From a virus: a stretch of DNA of 33,635 nt. Both the position numbers and the translations under genes were made by a program. The stretch covers positions 1-33,635 of IMG/VR virus record IMGVR_UViG_3300037193_001246. One strand, written 5' to 3'. The notes beneath the pieces are model-generated. The model searched no databases, was not told where the DNA came from, and saw only the letters and a list, made by a program, of their open reading frames with translations. Shown here one piece after another: positions 5,802 to 10,659 of the stretch. The stretch's first letter is position 1; each line of letters starts with the position of its first letter.

Positions 5802-6364
5802 CGAAGGAGTACCTGGGAGGCGGCAAGGCGGTCGGACCATCGGAGATGGAGGACGGCCGCGAGAAGCACAGCTACTCCGAGGGGAACTTCTACATCGCGA
5901 GCACGGATCGCCACCACCAGTCCGGGACGGTACGGTGGGAGGTTGGGAGGCTGCCGCGATGGCTCATCGCTGAGGTCATGCGCTGGATCGACAGTGACCT
6001 GACCCCTTATCGGACGATCCCTGACCTGGTGAGGGACGCGATCTATCACCGAACGCACCAGCTCCGAGAGTTCGAGGCGGACCCCAGCTTCGACTGGGGG
6101 GCGTATGAGACTCACCAGCGGATCCTCGAGCGGGCCCGGAAGACCCAGGAGTCCGACGCCCAGATCAAGGACATCGAGCAAGCCCTGACGTCCACGCTCT
6201 CAGCCGGCGACGTGGACGGGTACAAGGAGATCCTCGAGGACGCCACGAGGATGGTCCCCACGCTCCGCGAGCCCTTCGCGGGCCGGCTCCGTGCCACGGT
6301 CAACGCGGCCGAAGAGCACCTCTCGAAGATCCTCCACCTGCCCAGGTACCCCCAGAACGGTTAG
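5798..6364 (+). CDS. Probable ribbon-helix-helix DNA-binding protein
   Basis: The ATG overlaps the stop of the XRE gene, so the two are co-translated. In this 188-aa protein, residues about 46-86 read as a beta-strand (VRWEVGRLPRWL) followed by two helices ending YRTIPDLVRDAIYHR, the classic ribbon-helix-helix order. Residues 100-188 are helical and charged. It could act as a second regulator or a replication accessory protein. The call rests on pattern only. Confidence 0.65.
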   Translation: MTKEYLGGGKAVGPSEMEDGREKHSYSEGNFYIASTDRHHQSGTVRWEVGRLPRWLIAEVMRWIDSDLTPYRTIPDLVRDAIYHRTHQLREFEADPSFDWGAYETHQRILERARKTQESDAQIKDIEQALTSTLSAGDVDGYKEILEDATRMVPTLREPFAGRLRATVNAAEEHLSKILHLPRYPQNG

Positions 6365-6366
6365 CC

Positions 6367-7950
6367 ATGACCCAGCTTGCGCTTGACCTGCCCTGGTTCC
6401 GTGGCTTCAGGGACGCCCAGGAAGAGACGATCGAGAGGATCGTGCGGGCGTTCGAGTGGAACGACCTGGTGGTGCTGGATGCGCCGACGGGGGTGGGCAA
6501 GACCCTCATCGCTGAGGTCGTGCGGCAGCGCCTGCAGACCAGGGGGCTGTACCTGTGCAGCGACCTGACCCTGATGGATCAGTTCATCCACGACTTCCCG
6601 TATGCGATGGCGCTGAAGGGGAGGTCGAACTACACCCCGCTGGATCCCTCGCCGGACGCATGGGGACACAAGCCGACGTGCGCGGACTGCGACAAGTACG
6701 AGGACATGTGCAGCTTCTGCGACCCGACGTGGGCGTGCCCCTACGAGCAGGCGAAGATGGGAGCGTCCAGGGCGGAGCTCGCCTGCACGAACATCCAGTA
6801 CTTCCTGACTGAGTGCAACCTGGTTAGGCAGAGTAAGTTCTCGGGTCACCCGTTTGTGATACTTGACGAGTGTGATATGCTGGAGTCTCACCTGATGAAC
6901 TTCGTGGAAGTGAGTGTGACGACGAGGATGCAGAAGTACCTCGGGATCACCTGGCCCAGGAAGAAGACGGTGGAGGGGAGTTGGCCGGAGTGGTTCGAGA
7001 CCAACGTCCCCAGGGTGGAGAAGCGGTTCCAGGCCATGCCGGCTCGGAGCCTGCCCGAGAGGCGCTTCAGGACGGCTGTGGGGCGTCTGCTGCAGAGGAT
7101 GAAGGCGGTGCAGGCCACGATCGAGGACGGAGGCTGGGTGTACACGGGCTACGACCAGGGACGAATCGAGTTCCGGCCGGTGACGGTGGAAGGGATCGGT
7201 CACCCGAACCTGTGGGCGCACGGGAAGAAGTTCCTGGCGATGAGCGCCACGGTGCTGAGCCCCGAGGTGTTCGTGGAGAGCCTGGGGTGGGAGGGGAGCT
7301 GGGAGTACGTGAGCGTGCCGAGTCCGTATCCGAAGGAGAGGCGGCCGGTAAGGGTGGCGCCGGTGGCGACGATGACCCACAAGACGAAGGAAGAGGCTTG
7401 GCCGAAGATGGCGGAGGGCGTTGCGAAGGTGCTCGAGCTGCACCCGGACGAGAGGGTGCTGGTCCACACGCACAGCTACGCCCTGGCCAACTACCTGTTC
7501 AACGAGGTTCCGCTCCCTGATCGGAGGGGGTTCGTGTACCTGGACGCCGGCGAGAGAGAGGAGGCGATCCGAGGGTTCGAGGCGACAGATGCCGCTGTCC
7601 TGTACGCGAGCTCCCTCGATCGGGGATACGACGGGAAGGATGACCTGGTGAGGGTCATCGCCGTGTGCAAGCTGCCGTTTCCGAACCTGGGGGACCGGCA
7701 GGTGCAGAAGAGGCTGTACGGGACGCCTGGGGGGCAGATGTGGTACGCGACCCAGACGGCCAGGAGTCTCGTGCAGATGGCTGGAAGGGGGATGAGACAC
7801 CGAGAGGACGGGTGTGTGACGTACCTGCTGGACGGCCAGTTCATGAAGTTCTGGCGGGACTGGCGGAGAGGGCAGAAGCACAAGCTGCTGCCGGACTGGT
7901 ACACGGAGGCGCTCGAGTGGGGCGGCCCGTGGAGAAGGGAGATCGGATGA
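6367..7950 (+). CDS. XPD/DinG-like superfamily 2 helicase with Fe-S cysteines
   Basis: This 527-aa ATP-dependent 5'-3' type helicase begins 2 bases after the previous stop. Walker A APTGVGKT lies at 39-46 and the DEAH-like DECD box at 167-170. Cysteines 105, 108, 115, 118 and 124 between motifs I and II fit the 4Fe-4S domain of XPD/DinG, followed by the family-typical CPYEQAK segment. SATVLSPEVF marks motif III/IV and QMAGRGMR (470-477) is motif VI. The length is near that of compact phage members. It is the probable replicative or recombinational helicase of the operon. Confidence 0.9.
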   Translation: MTQLALDLPWFRGFRDAQEETIERIVRAFEWNDLVVLDAPTGVGKTLIAEVVRQRLQTRGLYLCSDLTLMDQFIHDFPYAMALKGRSNYTPLDPSPDAWGHKPTCADCDKYEDMCSFCDPTWACPYEQAKMGASRAELACTNIQYFLTECNLVRQSKFSGHPFVILDECDMLESHLMNFVEVSVTTRMQKYLGITWPRKKTVEGSWPEWFETNVPRVEKRFQAMPARSLPERRFRTAVGRLLQRMKAVQATIEDGGWVYTGYDQGRIEFRPVTVEGIGHPNLWAHGKKFLAMSATVLSPEVFVESLGWEGSWEYVSVPSPYPKERRPVRVAPVATMTHKTKEEAWPKMAEGVAKVLELHPDERVLVHTHSYALANYLFNEVPLPDRRGFVYLDAGEREEAIRGFEATDAAVLYASSLDRGYDGKDDLVRVIAVCKLPFPNLGDRQVQKRLYGTPGGQMWYATQTARSLVQMAGRGMRHREDGCVTYLLDGQFMKFWRDWRRGQKHKLLPDWYTEALEWGGPWRREIG

Positions 7951-8150
7951 AGCTGTTCGAGTACGTGATGATCCTGCACCCGAGCGAGAAGGAGCAGGAG
8001 GACGGGAAGCAGAGCACGCTGCTGAACGGGGGAGTGGAGCACGTGCTGGCCAACGATGAGCGGGCGGCGCTCATGCTGGCTGGCCGGCACATCCCCGAGG
8101 AGCACCTGGACAAGCTGGACCGGATCGAGGTGGCGGTTCGCCCTTTCTGA
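7947..8150 (+). CDS. Small conserved phage protein ending in RPF, frame 0 product
   Basis: ATG 7947 overlaps the helicase stop as ATGA. The 67-aa product starts MKLFEYVMI and ends EVAVRPF, with a DERAALMLAGRHIPEEHLD helix; it is probably a small alpha/beta protein. The last two sense codons, CCT TTC, lie in a C-CCT-TTC slippery heptamer (8141-8147) just before TGA. A -1 slip there would join a 58-codon open frame that ends on the next gene's start. Function is unknown, but the MKLFEY...RPF shape recurs in actinophages to my recollection. Confidence 0.8.
   Translation: MKLFEYVMILHPSEKEQEDGKQSTLLNGGVEHVLANDERAALMLAGRHIPEEHLDKLDRIEVAVRPF
8141..8147 (+). promoter_or_regulatory. Candidate -1 frameshift slippery site
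   Basis: The zero-frame reading is C CCT TTC followed directly by TGA, fitting the X-XXY-YYZ rule. A purine-rich AGGTGG lies about 9 bases upstream, the usual place for an anti-SD stimulator in bacteria. The -1 frame is then open to 8323. Confidence 0.55.
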
Positions 8151-8323
8151 GGGAGCCGACGAGGAAGGAGCTAGCTGAACAGATCTACGACGAAGGGATC
8201 ATACGGAAGCCAGACCGCTACACGTTCGCCGGCGTAACAGACAACGTGGCGTGGTCGACAGGCAACACGACGGCAGCGACGTACTACCCGGCAACATCAG
8301 TGACGACGACAAGGAGTCTGTGA
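8147..8323 (+). CDS. -1 frame extension of the preceding gene (or small separate gene)
   Basis: From CTG 8147 the -1 frame is open for 58 codons and stops at TGA 8321-8323, overlapping the next ATG as TGATG. There is no ATG, GTG or TTG near its beginning; the only internal start is a GTG that would leave about 25 residues. The sequence looks coding (LAEQIYDEGIIRKPDRYTFA, then a Thr/Ser/Tyr-rich end). The simplest reading is a 125-aa fusion made by -1 frameshift at 8141-8147. Alternatives are CTG initiation or a decayed gene. Confidence 0.55.
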   Translation: MREPTRKELAEQIYDEGIIRKPDRYTFAGVTDNVAWSTGNTTAATYYPATSVTTTRSL

Positions 8324-8991
8324 TGGCTTGGAAGGACGATGACCTCAAGGGTCAGGGTGGAGATTTCGAGTACGTCTTCTCCATCCACAAGAGCTACGCC
8401 GGCTACACGGAGTACAACGACGGGAAGACCTGCCTGCTGATCCTGGAAGGCGAGAAGGAGTACCCGTCGGGCAAGGTCGAGGACAGCCACATGTGGATCG
8501 GCGTCCCCGACAACCAGGAAGGGACCTTCGAGCCCAGGGATGGCGAGGGGACCGGGTTCCTGCACACGAGTGGTGACCCGGACAAGCGGTTCAGCCCGCA
8601 GTCGAAGATCCAGAAGTTCATCCGGTCTGCAGTGGAGGTCGGAGTGCCGCTGGAAGAGCGGGGAGACAGCTCCCTGGACGCCAGCATGTGGGCCGGGCTG
8701 AAGCTGCGGATCAAGGAAGAGCGGCAGGAAGCGAAGGTCAGGGGAGAGTCGAGGGCGTGGAACCAGCCGCTGGTGGTCGAGTACCTGGGGGAGCTCCAGG
8801 GCGGATCCACATCAAGCTCAGCGCCCTCGAGCACGAGCAATGGCTCTGGGGACGTGGAGGCTCAGGCGAGGGAGATTGCTAAGGCCGCCAACGACCCCGT
8901 GGAGTACCTCGAGCGGGCGAAGAAGGAGCTCGGCGTGGACCTGGGTCACCCGGTCATGACGAGCGAGTTCTACGCGAAGGCGAACGCGTAG
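8323..8991 (+). CDS. Recombination-operon protein, possible ssDNA-binding
   Basis: ATG 8323 has AAGGAG 6 bases upstream and overlaps the preceding -1 frame stop. The 222-aa product has an aromatic, beta-rich first half (FEYVFSIHKSYAGYTEY, LLILEGEKEY), a central helical part, a Ser/Gly-rich linker at about 165-185 and a helical C-terminus. Position between a helicase and a Cas4-like nuclease with a Sak4 ATPase suggests a single-strand-binding or annealing-associated role, but no family motif proves it. Confidence 0.8.
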   Translation: MAWKDDDLKGQGGDFEYVFSIHKSYAGYTEYNDGKTCLLILEGEKEYPSGKVEDSHMWIGVPDNQEGTFEPRDGEGTGFLHTSGDPDKRFSPQSKIQKFIRSAVEVGVPLEERGDSSLDASMWAGLKLRIKEERQEAKVRGESRAWNQPLVVEYLGELQGGSTSSSAPSSTSNGSGDVEAQAREIAKAANDPVEYLERAKKELGVDLGHPVMTSEFYAKANA

Positions 8992-9926
8992 TGAGCAGCA
9001 GGCCCGACGTCTACAGGGACGACTCGGGAACGTGGGTGTACCGAGCCTCGTCGATCGGGGGATGCACGAGATCCCTCGTAGCGGCGAGGCTCGGGATCCC
9101 ATCGGCGCCGCCGCCGGAGAGGCTGCAGGCCACGTTCGAGGAAGGCCACCGGCAGGAGGGGTTGATCGAGTCGTACCTCGAGTCGCGTGGGATGCCGGTG
9201 ATGGAGAGCCAGAAGACGGTGAGGTTTCGGGTGGACGACGACGTACTGATCGTCGGACACGTGGACGGGTTCGTGAACTTCCCCGGGCACGGGAAGTGCG
9301 TCATGGAGGGGAAGGGTCTGGGGAAGAACTACCTGCAGCAGTACGACGAAGGTGGGTTCGAGGCGATGGGCGTCGTAGGACGGAAGTACAAGTGGCAGGC
9401 GGCGATCTACATGCACGCGACGGGCCTGCCGATGGTGTACGTGGTGAGGAGCAAGATCACCGGGGAGTCGCGGGTGACGGTGATGACCGTGCCGCCGGTG
9501 AGCGAGGAAGAGATCTACTTCAAGCTCGGGCAGATCGAAGCCTTCGCCAAGAGAGATGAGTTCCCGCCGTGTGATGCGGGGTGCAGCGCGTGGACGAGCT
9601 TCTACTGGGACATCCACGACCCGGACGAGGACGTCGTGGAGGCCCCGGAGCTCGAGCCGATGCTGGATACGTACCTGAAGCTGAAGGAGGCACTGGAGGC
9701 TGATCAAGAGGTGCTCAAGCAGCTGGGGGACGAGCTCAAGAAGAGCATCGGCAAGGGGAAGACAGCGGCAGGCCCGTACACAGCGACGGTGAGTCACCGG
9801 ACCCAGCGCCGGCCGGACGTGAAGAAGCTGAAGGCAGCGCTGGGTGAGGAGTACGAGAACTACACCTACGAGACGTCGAGCACCAGCTTGACCGTGAGGA
9901 GGAGAGATGCCGCTGGTACCCCCTGA
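8991..9926 (+). CDS. Cas4/RecB-like PD-(D/E)XK nuclease
   Basis: GTG 8991 shares its G with the upstream TAG. The 311-aa protein has the nuclease motifs in order: EGHRQE (51-56), GHVDGF with D92, E106-G-K108 and Q136-x3-Y140. Together these define the RecB/Cas4 exonuclease fold acting on DNA ends with a divalent metal. C25 and the pair in PPCDAGCSAW may bind an Fe-S cluster as in Cas4, though the full four-cysteine set is not clear. Residues 225-260 form a helical hairpin. It likely works with the next gene's ATPase in recombination. Confidence 0.85.
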   Translation: MSSRPDVYRDDSGTWVYRASSIGGCTRSLVAARLGIPSAPPPERLQATFEEGHRQEGLIESYLESRGMPVMESQKTVRFRVDDDVLIVGHVDGFVNFPGHGKCVMEGKGLGKNYLQQYDEGGFEAMGVVGRKYKWQAAIYMHATGLPMVYVVRSKITGESRVTVMTVPPVSEEEIYFKLGQIEAFAKRDEFPPCDAGCSAWTSFYWDIHDPDEDVVEAPELEPMLDTYLKLKEALEADQEVLKQLGDELKKSIGKGKTAAGPYTATVSHRTQRRPDVKKLKAALGEEYENYTYETSSTSLTVRRRDAAGTP

Positions 9927-10659
9927 GGGAAGCCCTCGGGAGAAGATCCTGGTCTACGGACCGCCGAAGGTGGGGAAGACGAGCGCCCACCTGTCGATCG
10001 CTGAGATGTACCTGGCGACGGGAACGCCGGGGAGGTTCTTCGTGATCGACACCGACGACGCGATGGAAGCGATGTTGGTGGGGAGGGACCTGCCGAACGT
10101 TGAGGTGCTGACCGCGAACGAGTGGCCGGAGTACAAGGAGGCTGCGAGCAAGGCGGTCGCGCAGGCAGAGAAGGGCGACTGGATCGTGGTGGATTTCGTC
10201 GACCGCGCATGGACTGAGGTGCGGGACTGGTACATGCGTGAAGTCGCGGAGACCAACTGGGAAGAGGACGTGGTTGAGCGGGCGAGGCAGCTGAAGGAGG
10301 AGGGGAAGCTCGACAAGAAGAACCGCATGCGGCTGTACGAGGGGCTGAACTGGGACGTGATCAACCCGCAGTACAACAGCTTCATCAAGCCGCTGGTGAT
10401 CCGGACGCAGGCGAACATCTTCCTGACCTGTGAGGAGAAGGAGGTCTGGAAGGACGGGAAGCCGACGAACGAGACGACGCCTGGTGGGCAGAAGGGGCTG
10501 TCGTATCAGGTGAGGACGATCCTGAAGCTGGACAAGCTGGCGAGGGGTCGGATCATCAAGACGCAGGGGGACAGGGAGAGACCGGAGCTCAACAACGAGA
10601 CGTACGACTCGTTCGCGATGACGTACCTGTGCAAGACGGCGGGGTGGAAGATCGCATGA
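9907..10659 (+). CDS. Sak4-like RecA-fold ATPase
   Basis: The protein has 250 aa and overlaps the nuclease by 20 bases. Walker A GPPKVGKT is at 18-25, IDTDDAMEA follows the second strand, and Walker B IVVDFVD is at 93-99. The compact RecA-like core with a late ILKLDKLARG strand fits phage Sak4/AAA_24 ATPases, single-strand-annealing recombinases. Partnership with a Cas4-like nuclease is typical for such phages. Its stop overlaps the next ATG (ATGA). Confidence 0.82.
   Translation: MPLVPPEGSPREKILVYGPPKVGKTSAHLSIAEMYLATGTPGRFFVIDTDDAMEAMLVGRDLPNVEVLTANEWPEYKEAASKAVAQAEKGDWIVVDFVDRAWTEVRDWYMREVAETNWEEDVVERARQLKEEGKLDKKNRMRLYEGLNWDVINPQYNSFIKPLVIRTQANIFLTCEEKEVWKDGKPTNETTPGGQKGLSYQVRTILKLDKLARGRIIKTQGDRERPELNNETYDSFAMTYLCKTAGWKIA

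Follow-up and report, generated by a model that had tools for sequence, protein, structure and literature searches.

A small gene in the DNA-recombination region of an uncultured phage very likely undergoes programmed -1 ribosomal frameshifting, on comparative evidence alone and without wet-lab data, so that a fraction of ribosomes would extend a 67-aa core protein with a second, conserved tail to give a 125-aa form. The same arrangement recurs in about 60 related viral sequences, nearly all from uncultured phages, and appears to constitute an undescribed family of recoded phage genes. The window analyzed here is a stretch of 33,635 nucleotides (IMG/VR record IMGVR_UViG_3300037193_001246), and all of its features described below are on the plus strand unless otherwise stated.

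The initial annotation of a candidate -1 frameshift yielding a 125-aa fusion was confirmed at the sequence level. The 0-frame gene (7947-8150) encodes 67 aa, ends in IEVAVRPF, and its ATG overlaps the stop codon of the upstream helicase gene (ATGA). Its last codons, CGC CCT TTC TGA, contain the heptamer C_CCT_TTC in the correct register at 8141-8147, directly followed by the TGA at 8148-8150. The -1 frame is open for 58 codons (8147-8320) and stops at a TGA (8321-8323) that overlaps the ATG of the next gene at 8323 (TGATG). The first ATG, GTG or TTG in the tail frame is codon 34, thus there is no usable start near the junction. An open frame of 58 codons is weak evidence by itself, as 12.5% of dinucleotide shuffles of this region stay open, but the codon usage is gene-like only in the -1 frame (log-odds +8.4, versus -36.6 in frame 0, -19.7 in frame +1, and -12 to -33 antisense).

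To establish whether the arrangement is conserved, we collected 60 non-redundant homologues (loci designated L followed by a number). The first relatives, L001 and L002, the latter from a 735-kb metagenomic phage, both end CGC CCT TTT stop with an open -1 frame, and a back-translated C-terminal pattern gave about 20 more. In 55 of the 60 the tail lies in the -1 frame, four have the tail in +1, and one is fused in-frame. Because the C-terminal pattern selects for the VRPF-stop ending, the search was repeated with only the N-terminal part of the protein, in two rounds giving 24 and 28 loci. Excluding queries and duplicates, 33 loci were found this way, of which 30 have the -1 layout, one is +1 (L046, also found earlier by pattern), one is fused in-frame (L083), and one (L081, 3998-4425), which ends VKSFG with one extra codon before the stop, has an open tail frame but an unclear slip site. 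The remaining 27 loci are queries or were collected with a pattern naming the C-terminus, and the pooled counts are therefore partly biased; the 33 N-terminal-only loci are the fairer sample, and they show the same picture. The homologues are related, so none of these counts represents independent events.

With L081 set aside, the stop directly follows the Phe codon of a slippery heptamer in the 54 remaining -1-class loci. The heptamers are CCCTTTT in 26, CCCTTTC in 22, TCCTTTT in three, and GCCTTTT, GTCTTTT and AAATTTT in one each. The codon pair CGC-CCT occurs in 48 of the 54, where 2.05 are expected from each contig's own codon usage and 20,000 simulations never exceeded 9. L149, a relative in which RPF was replaced by KNF, is telling in that its DNA reads A_AAT_TTT, another canonical heptamer. 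An open -1 tail of 46 or more codons is present in every -1-class homologue whose contig does not end inside it, as L144 does.

The four +1 relatives (L014, L032, L039 and L046) end CCC TTT TGA; in these, the -1 frame closes quickly and the +1 frame is open for 36-90 codons. A DNA-pattern search for further members of this class found none beyond these four. The +1 tail of L046 and the -1 tail of L047 are clearly homologous (79 codons, shuffle z 42, dN 0.25, dS 0.58), and the +1 forms sit in three places in the core tree, although the tree rests on only 67 columns. L083 (1794-2189) and L084 read straight through CGC CCT TTT GAC into a tail of the same kind, with a collagen-like linker, and are natural frameshift-free variants. 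Reaching the same kind of tail by three decoding routes is hard to explain unless the core-tail fusion is a selected product. Between L046 and L047 the surrounding DNA is unrelated, while similarity starts near the core start and ends at the tail stop, so core and tail travel as one unit.

Complete tails are 36-188 codons and share a C-terminal motif with the family consensus of about T-Y-[TY]-[ST]-A-S-S-L-L, which in the window is TYYPATSV (8279-8302). In a leave-one-out test, from which L002, L081 and L088 were left out, the best match among six frames was in the predicted tail frame in 34 of 38 loci, the window included, and in 15 of 18 later loci scored with a matrix made from the earlier ones. 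The window's own tail gave no BLASTP alignment to the L001 tail and is placed by motif and codon usage. A scan for the motif elsewhere in the window found no other convincing bearer. The linker preceding the motif evolves faster than the core; in L140, L141, L143 and L147 the cores are nearly identical in protein sequence, while some linkers differ strongly in sequence and length with the C-terminal motif kept. A few linkers are collagen-like (L002, L036 and L083). The tail of L002 (2192-2755) is 188 codons, with a long Gly/Ser/Thr, collagen-like stretch and no typical C-terminal motif, and the -1 tail of L088 (4207-4389) is open but lacks the motif that its close relatives L086, L089 and L093 have, possibly because of an indel in the tail.

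We considered whether recognizable stimulators accompany the slip site. The initial annotation proposed AGGTGG, about 9 bases upstream, as a possible anti-SD stimulator; it lies at 8128-8133 (GAGGTGG at 8127-8133), with a 7-nt spacer to the heptamer. Across the family, the upstream sequence pairs with the anti-SD better than synonymous recodings do (mean -5.7 against -3.6 kcal/mol; pooled z 4.6), but the loci are related, and this modest family-wide trend is not significant in the window alone (p 0.13). Downstream RNA structure is slightly stronger than in shuffles across the family (mean z -1.3) and absent in the window (z +0.4), and no conserved downstream structure was shown. The stop codon abutting the heptamer may itself supply the pause.

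The most reasonable interpretation is that most ribosomes terminate at the TGA at 8148 and make the 67-aa core, while a fraction slips back one base on C_CCU_UUC, with tRNA-Pro re-pairing from CCU to CCC and tRNA-Phe from UUC to UUU, probably helped by slow decoding of the stop codon. The conservation of the slip site, of the tail frame and of the core-tail linkage is established by comparison, whereas the ribosomal mechanism and the minority status of the long form are inferred. For the +1 class, we infer re-pairing of CCC to CCU and of UUU to UUU one base forward at UUU_UGA. The suggestion in the initial annotation that the product is a regulated isoform is unproven, as two products are inferred but not any regulation of their ratio.

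Other explanations (ALTERNATIVES) fit the data much less well. The genes are tightly packed with overlapping stops and starts, and three loci have a TTG overlapping the stop, so the tail might be a separate small protein made by termination-reinitiation. This is very unlikely, however, as 27 of 36 -1 loci have no ATG, GTG or TTG within ten codons of the junction and only two have an ATG, the heptamer codons are conserved far beyond codon usage, and L083 is fused in-frame. Transcriptional slippage on the CCCTTT(T) run could give both -1- and +1-frame products from one site, but it too is very unlikely: the T runs are only 3-5 bases, apparently short of the long homopolymer runs usual for polymerase slippage, and slippage would not need the conserved register of X_XXY_YYZ relative to the reading frame or the conserved preceding CGC codon. 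A chance open frame, a decaying gene or an assembly error would have remained open for a lone window, given the shuffling result above, but is effectively refuted by the same layout in dozens of independent contigs, by the tail motif in the right frame, and by fewer nonsynonymous than synonymous changes in the tails, both between L046 and L047 and between L141 and L143 (dN 0.18, dS 0.54).

The function of either form is much less certain. The core is predicted by AlphaFold2 with high confidence (pLDDT 96.3) as a small alpha/beta domain whose last strand ends at the slip site, while the tail is predicted to be mostly disordered; in the natural fusion L083, it is mostly low-confidence beyond a short helix. 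No Pfam or PHROG match was found for the window core and tail, no match of substance was found for the 40 cores in PHROGs and NCBIfam, and fold searches gave no significant relative. Identifiable neighbors are mainly replication/recombination genes. In the window, consistent with the recombination operon proposed in the initial annotation, these are an upstream DNA helicase gene (6367-7950; PHROG 2488, E 2e-84; Pfam Helicase_C_2) and the genes for a RecE/Cas4-like exonuclease (8991-9926; PHROG 434, E 4.5e-18) and a Sak4-like ATPase (9907-10659; PHROG 124, E 2e-09; Pfam AAA_24). The 222-aa gene between the tail and the exonuclease gene (8323-8991) has no Pfam or PHROG match, and a 506-aa open frame antisense to the helicase gene (6361-7881, minus strand) is probably a by-product of high G+C at third codon positions rather than a gene. 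Elsewhere we found primase in L088, DNA polymerase in L082 and L091, UvsX-like protein and SSB in L039, and a primosomal protein in L089, with terminase in L027 and portal in L097 as exceptions, and no partner gene is constant. It is a tentative guess that the compact core is a subunit of a replication- or recombination-associated assembly, and that the long isoform carries a flexible linker ending in a conserved docking peptide that tethers a partner, in the manner of gpG/gpGT. An alternative about as tentative is that the long form is a fiber- or decoration-like virion or surface protein, as suggested by the Gly-X-Y stretches in the tails of L002, L036 and L083 and by the frameshifted C-terminal extensions known in capsid and tail proteins (PMC5009743), although most tails lack Gly-X-Y repeats and the identifiable neighbors point mainly elsewhere.

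The family is almost absent from cultured phages. A tblastn search of seven cores against 50,697 phage records found only LR756501 and LR756503, the two entries of the one 735-kb metagenomic phage. A protein search of genome contigs found none, a DNA-pattern search found one true homologue (L097, from an Elusimicrobia MAG), and a search of 199 genomes of that phylum found only that genome. We found no report of the family among the open-licence papers searched. Annotation pipelines would cut the protein short, and the VRPF-stop ending together with an out-of-frame TYTSAS tail offers a ready marker for finding more members. The -1, +1 and in-frame solutions at one junction make the family a natural experiment on how frameshift sites evolve and whether the isoform ratio matters. 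It is possible, although we consider it somewhat less likely than not, that this is a horizontally moving module under selection for a low-abundance isoform whose docking peptide acts in DNA replication or recombination, which would be a non-structural, non-chaperone use of programmed frameshifting widespread in uncultured phages.

Among known systems, the core model resembles a model of a DpnD/PcfM-like viral protein in fold only (Foldseek TM-score 0.66), but the E-value of 0.4 is not significant, the core has no Pfam match, and no frameshift is known there. The dnaX tau/gamma -1 frameshift seems likewise to give two isoforms from one gene in DNA replication, with an SD-like upstream stimulator (only suspected here), but there the frameshift would make the short form, while here it makes the long form, and no homology was seen. 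The phage frameshifts reviewed in PMC5009743 serve tail assembly chaperones or structural extensions. Like the gpG/gpGT-type tail assembly chaperones of dsDNA phages, which are -1 in most and +1 in some viruses, the present family pairs a short protein with a frameshifted form, inferred here to be the minority, that carries additional sequence. However, the slip site abuts the stop codon, there is no sequence match to chaperone families, and no tail or tape-measure family was found among the families listed for neighbors, the gene lying instead in a replication/recombination region. The frameshifted extensions of phage structural proteins (T3 capsid, Lactobacillus A2, Listeria PSA/A118/A500), which are often Ig-like domains, similarly extend a fraction of a protein and are reached by -1, +1 or in-frame decoding, and the Listeria tsh +1 site is CCC_UGA. 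The protein described here is not known to be structural, however, and its tail is predicted to be a mostly disordered linker plus a short motif, with no Ig-like fold found in the window and L083 tails, the two examined. Core and tail also stay together as one module, whereas Ig-like domains occur on different proteins.
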